Assembly (NCBI GenBank): GCA_012520575.1
Contig: JAAYOB010000014.1
Location: 1 to 28,601, forward strand
From: Candidatus Stramentimicrobium fermentans
Lineage (GTDB): Bacteria > Atribacterota > Phoenicimicrobiia > Phoenicimicrobiales > Stramentimicrobiaceae
Reading direction: 5' to 3'
DNA length: 28,601 nt
A program made the translations under genes and the position numbers. Below, in pieces: positions 6,243-28,601 of the stretch. The notes beneath the pieces are model-generated. The model saw nothing but the letters and a program-made list of their open reading frames with translations. It was not told where the DNA came from and searched no databases. How positions within the stretch are numbered: position 1 is the stretch's first letter; each line of letters opens with the position of its first letter.

Positions 6243-6986
6243 TTAATATTGCTTTACTTCATTATGAGTGAGGTTTACCCAGATAGGTTTCTCTTTCCAC
6301 TGAATTTCTTTTACCAGTAAAACAGACTTATTGTTTTTGAATACTGTTTTTATTTTCCCCGCCAAAAAAACATAATCTTCTCCTGATAATACTTTTCCTT
6401 TTTCAGTACATACCTTATCAATTTTATAATTTCCGTATAGTATATTCACTTTAAACATAGTAGGTTGCTCTAAAAAAAAATGACTTCCTCTAAAACGACC
6501 ATCATTTCCGCTCAAACGTAAACCGGCACCGGCTAATGCGCCAATAATTCCATCCCCGGTTCCACCATGTTCTGATAAATAAATGGACAACTGTTCAGCC
6601 AAATTTAGGGCATCCTGTTTGGATATTTTTTTGACTTTTGCACTAAAACCAAAATCAACTAATCTTTCGGTAAATGTGAGTTCATCGAGTAATACAACAC
6701 ATAATCCGGGGTCGGATTCCGGAGCAGACTCTTTTTCTAAATAGTAAATAGCTATATCAATAATATTGTTAATTGTTTTTTTCTCAATAACTTCTCCTGT
6801 AAAACACATGGCGCTGTTGTGAGATGTATAAGGTATTGACGGGTGCACAAAAAGCTGATGTCTTGTAATATCATCAGCAGCCCCCCATTGATTTTCTAAA
6901 ATACTCTTTCTTATCTTCTCCAGCAGGTGACCGGTTCCCGGCCAATTTTTCTGATCAGTATCATCTATTGCTAAAATATATTTCAT
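6243..6986 (-). CDS. IDDTD-motif protein resembling the catalytic region of TiaS; function unknown
   Basis: This 247-residue cytoplasmic protein begins MKYILAIDDTDQKNWPGTG and later carries EHGGTGDGIIGALAGAGLR. These resemble the GIDDTD start and the (N)GTxxGxIGALAA motif of archaeal TiaS, the enzyme that puts agmatine on the wobble cytidine of tRNA-Ile2. It lacks the extra C-terminal RNA-binding domains of TiaS, so it is unlikely to act on that tRNA in the same way. It is the last gene of the riboswitch-controlled ABC operon, starting 8 bases after the binding-protein stop, with a GGAG site inside the end of that gene. The resemblance is from memory of motifs. A role in nucleotide- or cofactor-dependent steps of W/Mo metabolism is inference from position only. 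Confidence 0.6.
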   Translation of the reverse strand: MKYILAIDDTDQKNWPGTGHLLEKIRKSILENQWGAADDITRHQLFVHPSIPYTSHNSAMCFTGEVIEKKTINNIIDIAIYYLEKESAPESDPGLCVVLLDELTFTERLVDFGFSAKVKKISKQDALNLAEQLSIYLSEHGGTGDGIIGALAGAGLRLSGNDGRFRGSHFFLEQPTMFKVNILYGNYKIDKVCTEKGKVLSGEDYVFLAGKIKTVFKNNKSVLLVKEIQWKEKPIWVNLTHNEVKQY

Positions 6987-6994
6987 AGGATTGT

Positions 6995-8083
6995 CTAAGC
7001 ATCTCCTTTTCTCAGACGCATGCCTTCCCCGCTTAATATCTTTTCCACATACTCATCCGTTAAATCCCATTCAAAAAAAGTAGAATAAAAATACTTCACT
7101 TCTTCCTGCATATTTATATCTGCAAATAAATCAGGATATAGTAATTTAGCAGTCCACAAAATTGCCAGAGGGGTCTCTAAAGCATTAGTGGGATGGCCCC
7201 AGCGGGATACACCATTAGGCATTTTGTATACTCTTTTATTCTTTACAGCCTGTAGATCAGCCCATTGCTCATTAGTAAGTATATATTTATCCACATTCTC
7301 CTCATTTACAATAAACACTTCCGCATCCCAGAGCAATATCTGTTCCATATTGGCAAAATACTTATTTTCTAAAAACTTTAAATCTGCATCTAAGGAAACA
7401 TTATGGGCTCCGGCAACTTCTAACCACTCTGCCGACAAAGTTCCTTTTGCATCAGTCCTGGTTGCCTCATTAACCGAATGATATACGGTAACCCTTTCGG
7501 AAAAAGGAATATCCTTAATTTTATCTTGTACTCGTTTTATACAATTATTGTAATAATCAATGTATTCTCTGGCTTCTTCCGTTTCCCCAAGAGCCTCTCC
7601 TATCATCTCCATAGAATATTGATGCTCATCAATAGAATTATAAGCAACTACTAAATAAGGAATATCAAATTGCTCTATTTGGGCAACATACGCTTCATTA
7701 ACTGCATTTTCACCCTGAATAAATAATATATCGCAATCGGCCCTAGCTAGTTCTTCAATATTTATGACACTACTCTTGCTGGGAACAATCGCATCTTTTA
7801 TATTCGGAAACATTTCGGTAAAGAGCACATCTCTTCTTAGACCATCCACAATCGCCACAATATCAGGGCCTCTATTAAGCAATGCCACCGCATGTCCTGA
7901 ATAAGCAAATAAACACCCTATTCTTTCCATCTTTTCAGGCATTTCAACCTCTCGACCAAAACAATCAATAACAATCTTTTTTTCAGCTGTTACTACCTGA
8001 TCCGCCCAGCAATTTGTAAAAAATATTAACAAAATAAATAATGTGATATTAAAAAATGTGTTAAATTTTCTATTAAACAACAT
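6995..8083 (-). CDS. ABC transporter substrate-binding protein, BtuF/FhuD/MolA type (probable tungstate or molybdate)
   Basis: This 362-residue binding protein has a Sec signal peptide (basic start, hydrophobic core ITLFILLIFFTNCWA, likely cut before about residue 30). A TroA/BtuF-fold body follows, with the standard early segment EKMERIGCLFAYSGHAVALL and the late DLQAVKNKRVYKMPNGVSRW. The segment GHPTNALETPLAILWTAKLL near the C-terminus is typical of these type II importer receptors. The cysteine in FTNCWA is a poor lipobox because asparagine precedes it. Its start overlaps the ATPase gene by 11 bases. Similar proteins bind corrinoids, haem or siderophores, but the Moco-family riboswitch at the head of the operon points to an oxyanion, as in the MolABC system of Haemophilus influenzae. 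Substrate is inferred from context. Confidence 0.85.
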   Translation of the reverse strand: MLFNRKFNTFFNITLFILLIFFTNCWADQVVTAEKKIVIDCFGREVEMPEKMERIGCLFAYSGHAVALLNRGPDIVAIVDGLRRDVLFTEMFPNIKDAIVPSKSSVINIEELARADCDILFIQGENAVNEAYVAQIEQFDIPYLVVAYNSIDEHQYSMEMIGEALGETEEAREYIDYYNNCIKRVQDKIKDIPFSERVTVYHSVNEATRTDAKGTLSAEWLEVAGAHNVSLDADLKFLENKYFANMEQILLWDAEVFIVNEENVDKYILTNEQWADLQAVKNKRVYKMPNGVSRWGHPTNALETPLAILWTAKLLYPDLFADINMQEEVKYFYSTFFEWDLTDEYVEKILSGEGMRLRKGDA

Positions 8084-8903
8084 CTTTCCCCTCCTTTTTT
8101 AAAAGTCTTATCGGTATAATATATTTTTGCTTTTTCTTTTCATCTGAATTATATTCTATAATTCTGCTCTCTATGTTAAAAAATTTATCGATATTCTGTC
8201 TGGTCAATATTTCACTCGGTCTTCCCAATACGACAAAGTTTTTTTGGTTAAGTATGGCTGTAAGGGTGCTTAAACCGTTATTTTCAAAATAAAAAGCATG
8301 ATTGAGATAATGTGTAGCCAGCATAACGGATAAATTCTTCTTTTTTATTAACTTTCTAATTATATCCAGAATAATTAAACTATTCTGAAAATCCAAGTAA
8401 GTAGTAGGTTCATCTAAAATCATAATTTTAGGCTTTTGTGCTAATGCCCTTGCAATCATTACTAGTTGCCCTTCTCCACCGCTTAATTCAGTGTAGGGTC
8501 TCTTTAATAGATGCGTTATTCCCACTGATTCAATAGCTTCCTGTGCAATTAAAATATCATTATTGTTAGGCGAGTTAAACATCCCTATATGAGAAGCACG
8601 CCCCATTAAGACTATTTCTTCCACAGTATAGGGAAAAGTCTTTTTATGAATTTGCGGGACATAAGAAACGATTTGGGCAATTTGTTTAGCTTTTAGACCA
8701 ATAATATTATTTCCATTTAAAAATATATTACCCTGTTTCAAAGGAAGGATTCCCATAATACAATCTAATAATGTGGTCTTACCGGAACCATTGGGACCTA
8801 TTAAACAAAAAACCTCCCCAGCACCCATATGAAAGGTAATGTTTTCTAAGACACTATTCTGAGCATATGCAAAAGAAACCCCTTTCACCTCCAATAAATT
8901 CAT
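8073..8903 (-). CDS. ABC transporter ATP-binding protein, FhuC/BtuD/MolC type
   Basis: This 276-residue ATPase powers the type II importer encoded around it. Walker A is GPNGSGKTT at residues 36-44, the Q-loop lies in YVPQIHK near 81-87, the signature LSGGEGQ is at 140-146, Walker B with catalytic glutamate is MILDEPTTYLD at 161-171, and the switch histidine is in LATHYLNHAF. The PTTYLD form of Walker B and the overall length are typical of the iron-siderophore/cobalamin/MolC branch. The gene begins one base after the permease stop and its end overlaps the binding-protein start by 11 bases, so the three are translated together. The predicted cargo is molybdate or tungstate, from the riboswitch. 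Confidence 0.93.
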   Translation of the reverse strand: MNLLEVKGVSFAYAQNSVLENITFHMGAGEVFCLIGPNGSGKTTLLDCIMGILPLKQGNIFLNGNNIIGLKAKQIAQIVSYVPQIHKKTFPYTVEEIVLMGRASHIGMFNSPNNNDILIAQEAIESVGITHLLKRPYTELSGGEGQLVMIARALAQKPKIMILDEPTTYLDFQNSLIILDIIRKLIKKKNLSVMLATHYLNHAFYFENNGLSTLTAILNQKNFVVLGRPSEILTRQNIDKFFNIESRIIEYNSDEKKKQKYIIPIRLLKKEGKDVV

Positions 8904-8904
8904 T

Positions 8905-9942
8905 TTACCAACCTTTGCCTTTAGTCTTCTTTAACAGATATACAAAGAATGGCCCACCGATTAAAGCAGTTAATATGCCCAACGGAATCTCAGAACCAAT
9001 CAGGGAACGACTTAAATTGTCCACGACAATCATGAAGAAAGAACCCAGAAAAAAGCTTGCCGGTATGAGTATGCGATTATCATTACCTAACAGCATTCTT
9101 CCAATATGCGGCATCACTAATCCCACCCAACCAACATTACCGCAAACACTAATAGCCCCGGCAGTGGCTAATGAAGCAAATATAACCATAATAATCTTTG
9201 TCAATAAATTATCAATACCTAATGCCTGCGCCTCTTTATCACCCATTGACAATATATTAATTTGCCATCTAAGAGCAACTAACCCTATTACTCCAACAGA
9301 AATTGGAATGATAGAAAAAATAATATCTTTGTATTGGGCAGTGGCTAAACTGCCCATAAGCCAAAAGGTAATGGAGGGTAATTTTTCAAAAGGATCTGCT
9401 ACAAATTTTGCGAAAGAGACTAATGCAGAAAATATTGATGATACAATCACGCCTCCTAAGACTAATGTAACTGTAGGAGTAGAGTGATAAATTTGTCCAA
9501 TAAAGAAACTCATTATTACTGCCAATAATGCGAAACCAAAAGCAAAAAAATAAACCATGTAATTCTGACCATACAAAATAATAGCCAAAACCGCTCCAAA
9601 GCTTGCTCCTGAGCTGACACCTAAAATACCTGAGCTAACCAAAGGGTTTCGGAATAATCCTTGAAAGGCAGCCCCGCTGATAGCTAGGCTACCTCCTACC
9701 ATTGCGCCCAATATAGCCCTCGGTAATCTTATTTTCCAGATAATTGTATTATAGATATCCGGATAAGTCTTTTTTTGCAGAGGATTAATAGCAGTAGACA
9801 GAACTTTAATTATATCCGACCAAGTCAAAGGATATCGACCAATAAAAAGAGAACCAAAAATACCAATAAAGGTCATAGATATTATCAAAAACAGAATGAA
9901 ACTTTTCCTTTTGAAATCTGAAACTGTGTGTCCCTTCCGCAT
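8905..9942 (-). CDS. ABC transporter permease, FecCD/BtuC/MolB family
   Basis: This 345-residue integral membrane protein has the hydrophobic pattern of a ~10-helix BtuC-type permease. Family motifs are clear: RLPRAILGAMVGGSLAISGA, FQGLFRNPLVSSGILGVSSG, and the ATPase-coupling region around VGWVGLVMPHIGRMLLGND. Two copies presumably form the pore. It sits between the secreted Ig-like protein (37-base gap) and the ATPase (one-base gap) in the minus-strand operon. The annotated ATG at 9940-9942 has only a weak upstream site (GGATAG); the start could differ by a few codons. Substrate by context: tungstate or molybdate. Confidence 0.92.
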   Translation of the reverse strand: MRKGHTVSDFKRKSFILFLIISMTFIGIFGSLFIGRYPLTWSDIIKVLSTAINPLQKKTYPDIYNTIIWKIRLPRAILGAMVGGSLAISGAAFQGLFRNPLVSSGILGVSSGASFGAVLAIILYGQNYMVYFFAFGFALLAVIMSFFIGQIYHSTPTVTLVLGGVIVSSIFSALVSFAKFVADPFEKLPSITFWLMGSLATAQYKDIIFSIIPISVGVIGLVALRWQINILSMGDKEAQALGIDNLLTKIIMVIFASLATAGAISVCGNVGWVGLVMPHIGRMLLGNDNRILIPASFFLGSFFMIVVDNLSRSLIGSEIPLGILTALIGGPFFVYLLKKTKGKGW

Positions 9943-9979
9943 CTATTTTCTATCCATAAACATTCTCCCCTGGATTATT

Positions 9980-10453
9980 TTATTTTACTATTCCTAATGC
10001 CGCAAACTCTAAAATAAGCTTTTCCCCTAATTTTTCACCGCTTTTTGACTCTAATTCAGGAGAAATTATAATTTGGTAAGTTTTTAATGACTCTATACCA
10101 CTTTTTATTATTAGGTTAATGCTATTCCTCTTTTCTCTTTCAACCTGATCGTCTGCCATTTGTATTTCCAGAGGTAATTCATCCCCATCATCTTTATCAA
10201 TTACCTTAAAACACTGCTTGTTATTCTCTAGAACAACCATATTTACTACGTTCTTGCTGAAGATAAATTCAATGACAATTGCCCTTTCTCCATTATCAGC
10301 AAACTTGTCAACCAATCGAAATCCCTCTAAAACCAGGGGATTCTTCCCGCTATCTTGAGCGTTCACAGGAATAACTGCTAATATTAACATTGTTGTCAGT
10401 ACAAAAACCGGGATTAAACTTTTTGGCTTAAAACTCTGTAAATTAAAGAACAT
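9980..10453 (-). CDS. Secreted Ig-like domain protein, first gene of the riboswitch-controlled operon
   Basis: This 157-residue protein has a signal peptide: hydrophobic core SLIPVFVLTTMLILAVIPVN, likely cleavage after VNAQ near residue 33. The mature part reads like one bacterial Ig-like β-sandwich of the SbsA/Big_5 kind: IVIEFIFSKNVVNMVV at the front, LPLEIQMADDQVEREKR in the middle, and TYQIIISPELESKSGEKLG followed by LILEFAA at the end. There are no cysteines in a lipobox and no second membrane segment, so it should be periplasmic or cell-surface. The start has a GGAGG site 8 bases upstream, just after the riboswitch terminator. Its position ahead of permease, ATPase and binding protein suggests a part in metal-oxyanion capture, but no function is established. 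Confidence 0.7.
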   Translation of the reverse strand: MFFNLQSFKPKSLIPVFVLTTMLILAVIPVNAQDSGKNPLVLEGFRLVDKFADNGERAIVIEFIFSKNVVNMVVLENNKQCFKVIDKDDGDELPLEIQMADDQVEREKRNSINLIIKSGIESLKTYQIIISPELESKSGEKLGEKLILEFAALGIVK

Positions 10454-10513: not shown

Positions 10514-10529
10514 AATACCATATCTTAAC

Positions 10530-10622
10530 TTCTCCTTTCCAAACACGGGGGGCTTTGCAATTTCTCGCAAAACCTAATGGTTAGTTTTCATAAGAAATCT
10601 TTTAGAAAACCAACTCGGAGAA
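10530..10622 (-). promoter_or_regulatory. Moco-family riboswitch lacking P3 (candidate tungsten-cofactor, Tuco, riboswitch)
   Basis: The minus strand has the conserved pieces of the Moco RNA motif in order: CTCCGAG, then GCCCCCCGTG, then GGAAAGGAGA. P1 is TTCTCC (10617-10622) with GGAGAA (10530-10535). P2 is a 10-bp helix, GTTGGTTTTC (10605-10614) with GAAAACTAAC (10580-10589). P4 is GGTTTTGC (10567-10574) with GCAAAGCC (10551-10558). Only five bases separate P2 from P4, so there is no P3. From the original description of this motif (Regulski and colleagues, 2008, from memory), members without P3 track with tungsten cofactor use. Binding would be expected to shut down the downstream ABC operon through the terminator. 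Confidence 0.85.
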
Positions 10623-10651
10623 AATTGAATCTATTAAATTCTTTTCACCTT

Positions 10652-12711: not shown

Positions 12712-14853
12712 CTAATCTTCCTCCAAATGAAATTCTTTATGTAATGCTTTTACCGCGGTTTCTATCTGTTTTTTATTAATGAGACATGATATCCTGGTTC
12801 CGGAGGTGCTGATCATCTCAATATTAATATTGTTATTAGCCAAAGATTCGAAGATGCGTGCTGCGATTTGGGGATCTGAGGTAATGCCTGCCCCTATTAC
12901 CGATACTTTGGCAACCTCCTGATCAGAAGTAACTTCAGAAGCGTGAACCTCTTTGGCTACCATCTTTACTATATTAAGTGCTTTTGACAAATTTTCCTGT
13001 GCTACGGTAAAGGCAATATCATTCACACCGTCATGCTCGGCACTCTGTATTATCATATCAATAATAATTTCATCTTTAGCTAGTGCCTTAAACAATTTGG
13101 CAGCAATTCCCGGCACATCGGGCACGCTCTTAATAACTATTTTTCCTACATTAACCTCGTGGGTTACTGCTCTTACGTTAACCTTTTCTAACATCAATAT
13201 TTCCTCTCCTGTTCTAATAATTGTGCCTGGGGCACTACCGAAGCTTGATTTTACTAATAACTCAACACCATAATTGCGGGCAATGTCGAGTGCCCTATAG
13301 TACAGTACCTTGGCACCCAAAATAGCCATTTCAGACATTTCATCATGAGAAATTTCTTTCATCGGTCTTGCCTCAGGGACTATTGAGGGGTCAGCAGTAT
13401 AAACGCCATCTACATCAGTATAAATTTCACAGCGTTCTGCTTTTAAGCTTGCCGCCAAAGCAACAGCGGTAGCATCAGAACCCCCTCTTCCCAATGTTGT
13501 AATATTTCCTTCTTGGTCTATACCCTGAAATCCCGCCACGATAACTATTTTCCCTTGATTCAAGGCCTCTTTTATATACTGCTGTCTGATGCTATCGATT
13601 TTGGCTCTAGTATAAGAACTATTGGTCCTGATGCCGGCCTGTGCCCCGGTAAAAGATACCGCCTCTTCGCCTAATGACTGGATAGCCATGGCAACTAAGG
13701 CAATCGAGACCTGTTCACCGGTAGACAATAACATATCCATTTCTCTGGAACTGGGATCTGGCATTATTTCATGGGCTTTACCGATTAACTCATCGGTTGT
13801 TTTGCCCATTGCTGAAACCACTATGACCAGACGATTTCCTTGCCTTGCTCTTTTGACAATCTTTTCAGCTACCATTTTAATTTTTTCAATATCGGAAAGT
13901 GAGCTTCCTCCATATTTTTGCACTATAATGGGTGCATATTCTTCTCCTCTTTCTATTGTTATTCCTTCTGTATCAGGATCCAATACTTTCACCGAACTTT
14001 TCAATTCAGCATCAGAAAAAGTTTTCTTCATAATTTTAACAATCTCCTTTTCCAGCCCTTCTTTTACTAATGAAATTATTGTGGGACCGGAACCGCTCAA
14101 TGCCACACCGGCTAATCCGCTTTTCTGAACTTCTGAAAAAATATTTTTAGCCCCCTTGATAAAGGGGAGTCGGAAAGGCTGGTGCAGACGATCCTGCATT
14201 GCCTCGGGAATAAGCTCCCATTTCGATTGCTGCAAGGCATTTACCAAAAGAGCCGATTTACTCAAGTTATCTACTGCATCCTCTAGTGAAACCTGCTTTG
14301 GTAAAACCTTTCTCATCTCTTCGGTGCTTAAAATAAAAGAGGGTATACCTACTACCGCTTTCAGATTGTGAGGTATGTCTAATTTTACCCACCTTATCTG
14401 TCCTTTTTGATTCCTGTAAGAAATGGTAAGGCCTCCAATAAGTGCCGGAACAATATTATCAAAATGACCTTCTAAAATAAAGGCCATGTGCAAAATCTCC
14501 TCCCTACTCAAATTAAGTTCATAAAGTTCACTTGCGCCTACTATACCACCTATGATAGCAGCTGCGCTACTTCCCAGTCCTCTTGCTATCGGTATATCGC
14601 TTTTTATAGTAATTTTTATTCCCCTATTTGCTAGACTGATCTCTGCTTTATCCATTACCAGACTAACTGCCTTGTATATCAAATTGCTCTCATCAGAAGG
14701 AAGGGTATCCAGACCATCCCCTTTTGCCTCAAATACAAAACCTTGCGCTATTTTCTCCATTTCTATTTCCAGATAGAGAGATAAGGCCATTCCCAGGCAA
14801 TCAAACCCTGAGCCAAGATTGGCTGTAGTTGCCGGAATTCTTACTTTTACCAA
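12712..14853 (-). CDS. thrB-lysC: Homoserine kinase-aspartokinase fusion (ThrB-LysC)
   Basis: One uninterrupted 713-residue frame holds two enzymes of the aspartate pathway. Residues 1-~303 are a GHMP-family homoserine kinase: ATTANLGSGFDCLG near 8-22, the ATP loop PIARGLGSSAAA at 88-99, and motif 3 GVALSGSGPTII at 249-260. Residues ~308-713 are a complete aspartokinase: QKYGGSS at 312-318, the GRGGSDATAVALAA active-site loop, DVDGVYTADP, and two C-terminal ACT domains (NVGKIVIKSVPDVPGIA and AKVSVIGAGITSDPQIAARI). The linker is only a few residues. The start is TTG at 14851-14853 with a GGAGG site 5-6 bases upstream. No internal start with a ribosome site in frame was found before LysC. Order in the unit is hom (broken), thrB-lysC, asd. 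ACT domains imply feedback inhibition by threonine or lysine. Confidence 0.95.
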   Translation of the reverse strand: MVKVRIPATTANLGSGFDCLGMALSLYLEIEMEKIAQGFVFEAKGDGLDTLPSDESNLIYKAVSLVMDKAEISLANRGIKITIKSDIPIARGLGSSAAAIIGGIVGASELYELNLSREEILHMAFILEGHFDNIVPALIGGLTISYRNQKGQIRWVKLDIPHNLKAVVGIPSFILSTEEMRKVLPKQVSLEDAVDNLSKSALLVNALQQSKWELIPEAMQDRLHQPFRLPFIKGAKNIFSEVQKSGLAGVALSGSGPTIISLVKEGLEKEIVKIMKKTFSDAELKSSVKVLDPDTEGITIERGEEYAPIIVQKYGGSSLSDIEKIKMVAEKIVKRARQGNRLVIVVSAMGKTTDELIGKAHEIMPDPSSREMDMLLSTGEQVSIALVAMAIQSLGEEAVSFTGAQAGIRTNSSYTRAKIDSIRQQYIKEALNQGKIVIVAGFQGIDQEGNITTLGRGGSDATAVALAASLKAERCEIYTDVDGVYTADPSIVPEARPMKEISHDEMSEMAILGAKVLYYRALDIARNYGVELLVKSSFGSAPGTIIRTGEEILMLEKVNVRAVTHEVNVGKIVIKSVPDVPGIAAKLFKALAKDEIIIDMIIQSAEHDGVNDIAFTVAQENLSKALNIVKMVAKEVHASEVTSDQEVAKVSVIGAGITSDPQIAARIFESLANNNINIEMISTSGTRISCLINKKQIETAVKALHKEFHLEED

Positions 14854-14978: not shown

Positions 14979-15782
14979 TTAATAGATTTGAAGATAATCA
15001 ATTGCTTGAACATAACTTAGTTTTTCCATCTCTAATATAATCTCTTTTAATCTATCTTCCTTCACAGGAGTGACGATAAGCCCTAATATGACGTTACCGT
15101 CTCCCTGGTTCGACTCAGCAGATTTTTCTACCCCTAGTCCATGTTGTAGTAAAGCCTCAATTACAGCATTTATATTTTGGGGGTTATTATCTGTTGTTAT
15201 TTTGAAAAAATAATTATGTTCCGCTAAGTCTGAAGATTCAACTGTAAATTCTGAGCTGTCTGCAAGCAAGAAATCATGTTCAAACGAATCCGGTTTTTTG
15301 ATTATTCTGACCATATCACTGATAATCATACTGGCTCCCGCCAGTCCGCCAGCCCCGGGATAGGAATGGCACTGGCAACAGAGGTTTCGAATAATAATTG
15401 AACATTATGCTGCTTAGCAATACGAAGTAATTCATACCCATGTTTTGCTATCAACTCTTTGTTAGGTGTCACAACGTGCTTCCCCTTCTCTAAAGCCTGT
15501 TTTACAACACTATAGGCCGGGTATTCGCCCCCCTATTGCCTCTACCACAATCTGAATTTCAGGATGCTCAACAACCTCCTGTGCCTGATCAGTAAAAAAT
15601 TGATAGTTAACCGGTGGTTTAGGCTTTCTGCCGGCATCCAAGTCAGCCAATCCAATAACTTTAATTTTATGGGGAAATATTTCTTGTTCAATAAATGATC
15701 TATTTTCTTCCAATAAGGATAAAACACCACTACCAATGGTTCCCAGTCCTAAAATCCCAATTCCTATCTCTTTTTTCTGCAT
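14979..15782 (-). pseudogene. hom: Homoserine dehydrogenase, frameshifted and missing most of its catalytic domain
   Basis: Three pieces of one gene are visible. Piece 1 (start 15782, good AGGAGG site): NAD-binding motif GILGLGTIGSGVL through VVEAIGG, then a stop because of six G residues near 15532-15537; removing one G restores the family sequence. Piece 2, in the shifted frame: EYPAYSVVKQALEKGKHVVT and PNKELIAKHGYELLRI through ETSVASAIPI. Piece 3, back in frame 1: PGAGGLAGASMIISDMVRI and a C-terminal ACT domain ending at 14979. Between SAIPI and PGAGG roughly 170-180 residues of the homoserine dehydrogenase catalytic domain are absent, judged against the usual ~400-430 residues. The enzyme would make homoserine from aspartate semialdehyde. 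As written it cannot work. Real decay and an assembly or sequencing fault are both possible. Confidence 0.88.
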
Positions 15783-25806: not shown

Positions 25807-25881
25807 TTCTATGTTTCTTGCTCTTGCTCTTTTATAGTTGTATAGTTAAAAATTGACTATTTAATACGAATAGTATTTTTT

Positions 25882-25986
25882 GTTTCCGATTTGGCAGCAA
25901 TCAATGGCGCTGTCAAACGGTAATACAGTGAAACTGTATTCGAGGGTATGGCTTAGCCCCCATGCCTCCCATTTGGAAAGGAAACG
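25882..25986 (+). promoter_or_regulatory. Moco riboswitch with P3
   Basis: The plus strand carries the Moco motif: TTTCCGA near the 5' end, GCCTCCC at 25964-25970, and GGAAAGG at 25975-25981. P1 is GTTTCC (25882-25887) with GGAAAC (25980-25985). P2 is TTGGCAGC (25891-25898) with GCTGTCAA (25909-25916). P3 is AATACAGT/ACTGTATT (25922-25929 with 25933-25940). P4 is GGTATGG (25945-25951) with CCATGCC (25960-25966). P3 is a perfect 8-bp helix, so this member has the full form associated with molybdenum cofactor sensing. A terminator follows, so cofactor binding likely lowers expression of the downstream Mo-related genes. Confidence 0.88.
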
Positions 25987-26017
25987 TTTAAAAAACTGAA
26001 CTTCATTAGCTTTTTTA

Positions 26018-26044
26018 TAACGCCTCTCCATGGCGTTTTTTTTA
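26018..26044 (+). terminator. Intrinsic terminator, expression platform of the Moco riboswitch
   Basis: ACGCC (26020-26024) pairs with GGCGT (26032-26036) across a 7-base loop, with flanking A-T pairs, and a run of T residues follows. It ends about 40 bases before the next start codon. Confidence 0.88.
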
Positions 26045-26082: not shown

Positions 26083-27393
26083 TTGCCAAATTATCGTGAT
26101 TTTTTACCAGAATTAAAGAGCATGACTTTATTTCAAAGAATTGAGGATGAGGAACTCCTATCTCTCTTAGAAGTTATGAAACCGGAAATTGAATTTCGAA
26201 AAGCGGGTAAATACATCCCCCTTCCCATCGATATCGAAAAAGGTATGTTCTGTATTGTTCTGAAAGGGAAACCACTCAACCGGTTAGAGCCAAGGTTAGA
26301 TGTCTACAATATGCCCAAATTTACCGAACCGGGCATGATGATGGGCGAAATTCCCTGTTTATCTGAAATGAATAGAAGTCAAGCACCAAGGATTAAATTC
26401 AAAGGTCCTCCGCCAGGGGGACTGAGGAACGACACATACGACCTCTATTTGCTAAAAATGAGCGGTGAAATGGTGACAAAATTTTATGGTGAAAAGTATT
26501 GTAAGGCACAGAGTATAATGATTCGAAACTTTTTAGGAATCCTTGCTCAAAAAGTTACCGATGTTCGTAAAGAAAAGGTGGAAGCCATTGCTGCCCTTGA
26601 GGTAGAATTAGCTCCCTATCGTTTACATATTTTGTGTGCAGGAGTATCTTGGAAATTAGTTAAAGAAATTGCGGAGCAATGGAACAAAGAACACCCTGAC
26701 TTACCCGCTATTGTTACCCCCGGTGGTTCTGTAGTCCTGATTCGTGAGGTAATAAGCGGTCATCCCTGTGATCTGTTGATTTCAGCAGACGATGCCATTA
26801 TTCGCTCTATGTTGATACCTGAATATGCGGAAGGATATCGTATCTGGGCCGGAAACAAAATGGTTGTAATTGGTGAGGATCTCTCTGATAATAATTGGAC
26901 AGAGAAACTGCTAGCAGATAATGCCACATTCAAACACCATAACCCTTATGCTGACCCCGGTGGTTATCGTGCCGTTATGGCTATCCTGCTGGCTGACAAT
27001 TATGAGCCCGGCTTGACGGAACGTCTTATGAATCACCCCGGACATATTGGTATGGAAAAGAATCCCGGTTTTTTCAGTGGTCAAAAAGAAGCTAAATATA
27101 CTTTCGCGTACCATTCTACTGCAAAGTCATCAGGTAAGAATTTTGCTGAATTACCGGATATAATGAACCTTTCTAATCCATCCTTGGCAGAAGAATATGC
27201 CCAGGTCAGTTTTGAAGTTGATGAGAAAAATACCGTAATTGCTACACCAATTGCACATGCTCTCACTATTCCTAAAAATGCGAGGCATAAGATGGCGGCA
27301 AAAGAATTTGCAAAAATGTTTTTAGATATTGATAAAACAGCTGAAGGGTTTCTATCTCGATCCGGGGTTTTCGGGAAAGATCCATTATCGTAA
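26083..27393 (+). CDS. Cytosolic fusion: CRP/FNR-type sensor domain plus WtpA/ModA-like oxyanion-binding domain
   Basis: This 436-residue protein starts at TTG 26083, fixed by AAGGAGG about 8 bases upstream. Residues ~10-165 look like a cyclic-nucleotide-binding-like domain of CRP/FNR proteins: LFQRIEDEELLSLLEVM, the β-roll piece GMFCIVLKGK, GMMMGEIPCLSE at 84-95, then a long C-helix (KAQSIMIRNFLGILAQKV). Residues ~180-436 look like the WtpA/ModA tungstate/molybdate receptor: LHILCAGVSWKLVKEIAEQW, PGGSVVLIREV, CDLLISADDAIIRSM, NPYADPGGYRAVMAI, ITIPKNARHKMAAKEF. There is no signal peptide, membrane segment or DNA-binding helix-turn-helix. It is the first gene after the Moco riboswitch. A cytosolic molybdate/tungstate or cofactor sensor or store is inferred. 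The domain calls are by eye. Confidence 0.8.
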   Translation: MPNYRDFLPELKSMTLFQRIEDEELLSLLEVMKPEIEFRKAGKYIPLPIDIEKGMFCIVLKGKPLNRLEPRLDVYNMPKFTEPGMMMGEIPCLSEMNRSQAPRIKFKGPPPGGLRNDTYDLYLLKMSGEMVTKFYGEKYCKAQSIMIRNFLGILAQKVTDVRKEKVEAIAALEVELAPYRLHILCAGVSWKLVKEIAEQWNKEHPDLPAIVTPGGSVVLIREVISGHPCDLLISADDAIIRSMLIPEYAEGYRIWAGNKMVVIGEDLSDNNWTEKLLADNATFKHHNPYADPGGYRAVMAILLADNYEPGLTERLMNHPGHIGMEKNPGFFSGQKEAKYTFAYHSTAKSSGKNFAELPDIMNLSNPSLAEEYAQVSFEVDEKNTVIATPIAHALTIPKNARHKMAAKEFAKMFLDIDKTAEGFLSRSGVFGKDPLS

Positions 27394-27522: not shown

Positions 27523-28601
27523 ATGAAAAAAATTAAAAAAATCGCCGATTTAAAAGCACTATCTCTCTTACTTGTGGCAATGATGGTCATAACAATCATC
27601 TTTGCCAGTCCCATCGCTGCAAAGGAAGCTCAAGCACAAGCAGACAGAACTGTTACCATAACCGATATGAGTGGGGATACAGTTACAATCAAGGGAGAAG
27701 TTAAAAAGATTATAAATCTCTGGCCTGCCTGCACATCTTCCTTCTTTGTTATGGGCGCAGGTGACTTGATTGTCGGACTAGCCGTTAATAGTCCTGGTAC
27801 CATGAACTCCTGGACACAATTATTCTATCCTAACTGTGTTAATATCCCTGCTTTAGGGGGTACTACTCCTTCGATCGAAAACCTCATTAACTTAAAACCG
27901 GATCTGGTCATTATTCACCCTTCAACTGCATCCAGCGGGCTTGCGCAACAGATCAGAGATGTTGGCATTCCTGCTATTAATATAAGTTTTAGTGATTATA
28001 GCACAATGATACAATCCTATACCATTTTAGGAGAAGTTCTTGGCGGTAAGTATCAGGAAAAACTTAGCCATTGGTGCACTGCTGTAGAGAACAAGATAAC
28101 ACATGTAAGAGAATTAACTGCAAATATTGCAGAAAATAACAGGCCAATTGTTTATTATATCGCCGGACAATCTGAAGGTGTTAATAGAACCATGGCAGCC
28201 GGTAGTATTATTTCTGATTGGATCGAATCTGCAGGAGGGGTTAATGCTTCTGAAATATTGAATATAACATCCACAGAGATTACTCCTGAAGCCATCTGGG
28301 ATCTTAACCCCGATGTAATAATTTGTGCCGGTGTCCATCAGCATATAAACGCACATACCTTAAAAAATACAGACGGATGGAAAGATTCAAAAGCAGTTAC
28401 CACTAACAGATTATACAACAATCCTTATGGATGCTTTAACTGGGACCGTTTCGGCTTAGAAAGTCAACTGCAGATTAATTATGCCTTAATGTGCATTCAA
28501 CCTGAAATAGCAAAAGAAAATGGCATTTTTAGAGAATCTATGATTGATGAGATTGTAAATTTTTACAAAAATTACACTGATTATGAATTAAGCAGGACAC
28601 A
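27523..28601 (+). CDS. Second BtuF/MolA-type ABC substrate-binding protein, C-terminus off the window
   Basis: 359 codons are visible and the frame runs open past the window end. A Sec signal peptide is clear: KK-rich start, core LSLLLVAMMVITIIFASPIA, and likely cleavage after AQAQA near residue 40. The body has the TroA/BtuF features: VTITDMSGDTVTIKG, IINLWPACTSSFFVMGAGD, LKPDLVIIHPSTAS, a long central helix, and AIWDLNPDVIICAGVHQH. The late motif NPYGCFNWDRFGLE is typical of the MolA-like branch as I remember it. The ATG has AAGGAG at 27508-27513. It is 129 bases after the CRP-WtpA fusion, with no promoter or terminator recognised between them, so it should share the Moco riboswitch. A permease and ATPase are expected beyond 28601. 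Confidence 0.88.
   Translation, partial: MKKIKKIADLKALSLLLVAMMVITIIFASPIAAKEAQAQADRTVTITDMSGDTVTIKGEVKKIINLWPACTSSFFVMGAGDLIVGLAVNSPGTMNSWTQLFYPNCVNIPALGGTTPSIENLINLKPDLVIIHPSTASSGLAQQIRDVGIPAINISFSDYSTMIQSYTILGEVLGGKYQEKLSHWCTAVENKITHVRELTANIAENNRPIVYYIAGQSEGVNRTMAAGSIISDWIESAGGVNASEILNITSTEITPEAIWDLNPDVIICAGVHQHINAHTLKNTDGWKDSKAVTTNRLYNNPYGCFNWDRFGLESQLQINYALMCIQPEIAKENGIFRESMIDEIVNFYKNYTDYELSRT

Follow-up and report, generated by a model that had tools for sequence, protein, structure and literature searches.

A gene towards the end of a 28,601-nucleotide stretch of DNA from Candidatus Stramentimicrobium fermentans (contig JAAYOB010000014.1, forward strand; here called the window) raises the question of what is done by a protein that begins like a CRP/FNR regulator, ends like the oxyanion receptor WtpA, and has neither a signal peptide nor a helix-turn-helix. 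The gene (26083..27393, + strand) starts with TTG behind the ribosome-binding site AAGGAGG and encodes 436 amino acids, in agreement with the first-pass annotation, which had recorded one frame with a well-supported TTG start. As judged from its sequence, the product almost certainly combines an HcpR/CRP-type sensor domain, a 43-residue C-helix and a WtpA-like domain whose predicted ligand is tungstate or molybdate. None of the three outcomes that the first-pass annotation had named as refuting its reading came up.

The fusion protein and its family

The sensor domain, whose nearest relatives are HcpR-like regulators, occupies residues 1-136 (26083..26490, +). It is followed by the long C-helix, residues 137-179 (26491..26619, +), which is expected to be a dimerisation helix, and by the WtpA-like oxyanion-binding domain, residues 180-436 (26620..27390, +). 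The C-helix runs directly into the first strand of the WtpA-like domain with no helix-turn-helix between them, as expected from the earlier observation that a DNA-binding domain is absent, and scans with Pfam and NCBIfam found no MoeA or helix-turn-helix partner domain in the fusion. None of the eight fusion proteins has a hydrophobic N-terminus, and the ATG of three orthologues (L003, L018 and L022) is preceded by an in-frame stop at a distance of three to four codons, so that the reported lack of a signal peptide holds for the family. The protein, which is small and apparently soluble, is cytosolic by prediction, and a PBP-type Mo/W domain, assigned by homology, would thus sit in a cytosolic multidomain protein. 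The full-length AlphaFold2 model from the eight orthologues is poor (pLDDT 44.6) and was left out of the structural evidence.

Collecting homologues, an idea of the first-pass annotation, gave seven full-length orthologues with 66-76% identity and the same domain junction. Chance or chimeric assembly was ruled out as an origin of the fusion, the junction being identical in eight contigs. The orthologues L003 and L021 (the latter labelled Atribacterota) belong to the genus of the window, while the others come from metagenome-assembled genomes (MAGs) labelled Lutispora, Clostridiaceae, Clostridiales, Dehalococcoidales and Thalassospirochaeta; the phylum labels of the orthologue MAGs are Atribacterota, Bacillota, Chloroflexota and Spirochaetota. 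Within its own phylum the fusion occurs in 3 of 50 genomes, all of one genus, and in three other phyla it was found in one of 398, one of 344 and one of 350 sampled genomes, in each case an already-known member. The family is rare and conserved in scattered anaerobes. Because identity is high across phyla and presence is patchy, horizontal transfer of the gene is suggested. Single contigs in MAGs may be misbinned, which could make individual taxon labels wrong but does not call the family itself into question; L017, L018, L019 and L021 derive from a single sampling campaign. A sequence from Actinomyces (L023) was set aside as a family member, since its match covers 28 residues only. Between the window and L003, dN is 0.12 and 0.17 for the two halves of the protein and dS exceeds 2; both halves are under purifying selection.

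The sensor domain and the oxyanion-binding domain

Residues 1-176 match no Pfam or NCBIfam model. A profile of the eight orthologous N-termini, searched in 398 genomes of the phylum of genome G061, matches, apart from the fusion, only four CRP/FNR regulators, the best of these at 8.9e-7 per genome, or about 4e-4 once corrected for 398 genomes. Three of the four regulators, together with two weaker matches (L032 and L033), adjoin the same ferredoxin-like gene. Beside the regulators in L033 and L037 lies a gene, recognised by eye, which we take to encode a hybrid-cluster protein, presumably an HcpR-type setting. When this profile is compared by hhalign with a profile of six such regulators, columns 3-158 match with a probability of 96.4% (E 1.1e-9). 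The fusion aligned with 26 CRP regulators displays the common roll, the C-helix and a 12-residue insertion past a segment resembling the phosphate cassette; in a MAFFT alignment that combined the fusion with WtpA and CRP sequences, the CRP rows were placed wrongly. Based on these comparisons, the N-terminal part is assigned a cNMP-binding-type β-roll with a C-helix, as the first-pass annotation had proposed.

An AlphaFold2 model of the N-terminal part was built with the 26 CRP relatives, and since they guided it, citing it in support of the fold involves some circularity. Its helix spans residues 137-179 with pLDDT 74-92, and the middle of the roll is of low confidence. In Foldseek searches with this model HcpR stands on top (E 5.3e-4, prob 1.00; 9day, 5v30), the HcpR of P. 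gingivalis taking the first and second places, followed by GlxR and CRP. The model is consistent with a CRP fold and is not independent evidence for it. With HcpR and other CRP/FNR regulators the fusion shares the sensor domain, the long C-helix and a GE...R segment that resembles the phosphate cassette. It differs from them in having no helix-turn-helix and in carrying the 12-residue insertion after the cassette, and the Cys and His residues of its clostridial HcpR-like relatives are missing.

With phmmer, residues 180-415 as a single sequence match WtpA/ModA-type structures, namely A. fulgidus AF_0094 (3cij and 2onk, E ~5e-27), and also homologues from Methanocaldococcus, Methanosarcina and Pyrococcus; the orthologue profile matches solved WtpA/ModA-type proteins at 1.6e-35, and the Pfam model SBP_bac_11 gives 7.9e-15. 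The NCBIfam equivalog for WtpA, TIGR03730, scores 128.9 bits, far under its cut-off of 242.75, and the domain is therefore a relative of WtpA rather than WtpA itself. The two-lobe receptor that the first-pass annotation described as complete is thus upheld in its homology and not quite in its completeness, since the insertion found in the second lobe of archaeal WtpA is shorter in the fusion by about 20-40 residues. A canonical WtpABC operon is present elsewhere in the genome of the window (L024), behind its own Moco RNA.

In P. furiosus WtpA, tungsten is coordinated by Asp160 and Glu218, and Asp160 determines the selectivity between W and Mo (PMC10221389, PMC4139814). Asp291 of the fusion (26953..26955, +), invariant in all eight sequences, aligns with the Asp of NDDPCGYR in AF_0094, which corresponds to this tungstate-coordinating Asp160. 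The equivalent of Glu218 may tentatively be Glu325 (27055..27057, +), a position that holds Glu or Asp in 8/8 sequences. Residue 325 aligns to Glu218 and the alignment is gap-free up to the next conserved Tyr, in a stretch beside the shortened insertion that is ambiguous in the profile alignment; the canonical WtpA of the same genome has a Ser at the position aligned with Glu218. The first pocket Ser motif, HAGS, is changed to CAGVS in the fusion, and the Ser of the GGS motif is retained. Cys185, Cys229, His285, His318 and His321 are invariant across the fusion family. The fusion probably binds tungstate or molybdate. In summary of the comparison with A. fulgidus AF_0094 and P. furiosus WtpA, the two-lobe domain, the GGS and DPxGYR motifs and the tungstate-ligand Asp are common to both, whereas the fusion has no signal peptide, is joined to a CRP-type domain, has the shortened second lobe, the altered Ser and the low equivalog score, and is followed by FecB, FecCD and FecE genes rather than wtpB and wtpC.

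The Moco riboswitch and the importer genes

The fusion gene is preceded by a variant Moco riboswitch aptamer (RF01055; 25872..25999, +) and an intrinsic terminator (26019..26037, +). The aptamer, which scores 36.0 bits with cmscan (E 3.2e-5), exactly the Rfam gathering cut-off of 36, has P3, lacks a GAAA tetraloop in P4 and lacks the CUAAG/UAUGG receptor in P2. The terminator, AACGCC-TCTCCAT-GGCGTT followed by eight T, is a probable expression platform; the scan found one terminator compared with 0.2 expected in shuffled sequences. Seven of the eight fusion loci have a Moco RNA upstream, four that reach the Rfam cut-off (the window, L018 with 72.6 bits, L022 with 70.8 and L017 with 36.4) and three that fall just short of it (L021 with 34.9, L019 with 33.5 and L003 with 30.0), which substantiates the riboswitch named in the first-pass annotation.

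Tetraloop and receptor are both missing in the window, L003, L017, L019 and L021, the RNAs of 30-36 bits, and both are present in L018, ahead of the same gene. The variant lies at 25872-25999 in the window, 1277-1405 in L003, 191-321 in L017, 530-660 in L019 and 7-134 in L021, and its consensus fold contains four compensated pairs. The P2 and P4 loops of the variant are complementary over three bases (GGY/RCC), with C-G in three sequences and U-A in two. A P2-P4 kissing contact might replace the tetraloop-receptor contact, for which a single compensated pair among five related sequences is weak evidence. Searched across 287 genomes, a model of the variant RNA has strong matches only upstream of the fusion, the others being weak (26-30 bits).

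The Moco RNA of E. coli represses when cofactor is abundant (PMC2408646). Because an intrinsic terminator follows the aptamer here, the operon should, by analogy with the E. coli RNA, be on when the cofactor is scarce.

In seven loci, L020 being the exception, the fusion gene stands behind the Moco RNA and ahead of a FecB-type gene. In the window this gene (27523..28601, +; Peripla_BP_2, Pfam PF01497, 1.6e-17) is the first of an importer and continues past the contig end. The order fusion, FecB, FecCD permease and FecE ATPase is complete in L017, L018, L019, L022 and L025, the last being a longer stretch of L003, while the L021 contig ends inside the permease gene. The best solved relative of the permease is the molybdate permease MolB, HI1471 (2nq2, 1.5e-63). 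The FecE ATPase, with 256 residues, has no room for a C-terminal regulatory domain of the ModC type. Like MolABC of H. influenzae (HI1470-1472; PMC4031551), this is a FecCD-type (type II) importer for which molybdate or tungstate would be the substrate; no cytosolic receptor gene has been described with MolABC. In that organism an unknown factor connects cytosolic molybdate to molABC transcription (PMC4031551).

Several other features were seen in and around these loci. In L095 (3831-8059) and L096 (4710-8892) a Moco RNA precedes a SAM-methyltransferase gene and then FecB, FecCD and FecE genes related to those of the window, the methyltransferase gene occupying the slot of the fusion. A second Moco RNA of the window (10516-10632, - strand, 70.7 bits) has no P3; Moco RNAs without P3 are the type linked to the tungsten cofactor. 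It is followed at 6243-10453 (-) by genes for a 157-residue protein without a Pfam match, a FecCD permease, a FecE ATPase, a FecB-type binding protein and a product with weak similarity to methanogenesis marker 11/TiaS, and this gene order is repeated in L026. Also in the window, a 713-residue reading frame (12712-14853, -) unites two enzymes of the threonine pathway in an unusual way, a GHMP kinase resembling homoserine kinase and an aspartokinase with ACT domains. At 14979-15782 (-) a homoserine dehydrogenase appears to be broken by a frameshift, a deletion or an assembly error; a 90-residue NAD-binding piece stops early, and a separate 116-residue reading frame without a Pfam match, which follows it, may be the C-terminal part.

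Proposed function and alternatives

We favour, though tentatively, the reading that the fusion is a dimer in the cytosol which receives tungstate or molybdate after import and either signals to the importer encoded with it or influences that importer. Low molybdenum cofactor would cause the fusion to be made together with the MolBC-like, FecCD-type importer. The CRP/HcpR-type part and the C-helix would make the dimer, and this part may take a second input in the form of a redox signal, a gas or a nucleotide. The WtpA-like lobes would substitute for the DNA-binding domain and close around the oxyanion. In sensing the imported oxyanion, the fusion would adjust the importer, the ATPase of which lacks a built-in regulatory domain. 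We infer dimerisation, ligand and action on the importer alike. In M. acetivorans, the C-terminal regulatory domain of ModC mediates trans-inhibition of a ModABC importer for molybdate and tungstate (PMC10710835), and by conjecture the fusion could supply in trans the ModC-type function that FecE is missing. That a CRP-derived dimer exerts such feedback control in trans over a FecCD-type tungstate/molybdate importer, metal binding switching transport and not transcription, is in itself a doubtful proposition. Against the importer-linked reading stand the replaced first pocket Ser, the uncertain equivalent of Glu218, the poor full-length structure model, and the related importer operons L095 and L096, which do without the fusion. 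The fusion need not act on a FecCD importer, because in L020 (556-5023) it stands with neither an importer nor a detected Moco RNA.

Next in rank is a delivery protein, possible with somewhat less probability, which would take tungstate or molybdate at the inner face of the importer and pass it on to a cofactor enzyme such as MoeA. In archaea and some bacteria a cytosolic PBP-type Mo/W domain is found fused to MoeA, and the PBP domain of this MoeA1-PBP may deliver (PMC11733289), so that a precedent exists; encoding of the fusion with an importer under a Moco RNA fits as well. However, no MoeA or Moco-synthesis gene adjoins the fusion in the loci read, and delivery leaves the CRP-type sensor part unexplained. 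Retention of that part and its C-helix without a helix-turn-helix would be accounted for by a regulator that signals by contacting other proteins instead of DNA, the oxyanion being its input and a partner-switch or c-di-GMP pathway a conceivable target. Downstream of the fusion in L020 stand signalling-type genes for a SiaB-type DUF6272 protein, a relative of SiaC and a protein with GGDEF, and a gene for a binding protein of the phosphonate type, but such a neighbourhood occurs in this one MAG contig only and the other loci show the importer; we consider this regulator rather unlikely.

Even though a WtpA-type site is capable of binding tungstate very tightly (PMC10221389), a cytosolic buffer or store like Mop/Tub, an option of the first-pass annotation, is now disfavoured as improbable. 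One site per 436 residues makes a poor store, the Moco RNA and terminator predict synthesis under cofactor scarcity, the opposite of storage, the gene partners are those of an importer, and again the CRP-type part has no role. Least probable of all is a regulator that binds DNA by a contact as yet unrecognised, or a regulator in decay: the N-terminus does derive from a CRP/FNR regulator, but there is no helix-turn-helix, and purifying selection on both halves speaks against decay.

The domain combination of the fusion has partial precedents. MoeA1-PBP likewise joins a cytosolic PBP-type Mo/W domain to a cytosolic protein, with the cofactor-synthesis enzyme MoeA as partner where the fusion has a CRP-type sensor domain. 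TaoR and TaoR-like regulators, which are W/Mo-related, also contain a cytosolic PBP-like domain, with or without TOBE, and combine it with a helix-turn-helix (PMC11980592), while the fusion has the sensor domain and no helix-turn-helix. No description of a CRP-type sensor joined to a PBP-type Mo/W domain without a helix-turn-helix was found in the open-access literature searched, in line with the earlier suggestion that the protein may be undescribed. In this family a transport receptor has been relocated to the cytosol and occupies the position that in a regulator belongs to the DNA-binding domain. If the fusion senses or delivers tungstate or molybdate, control of metal uptake in these anaerobes would include a form that does not act through DNA.
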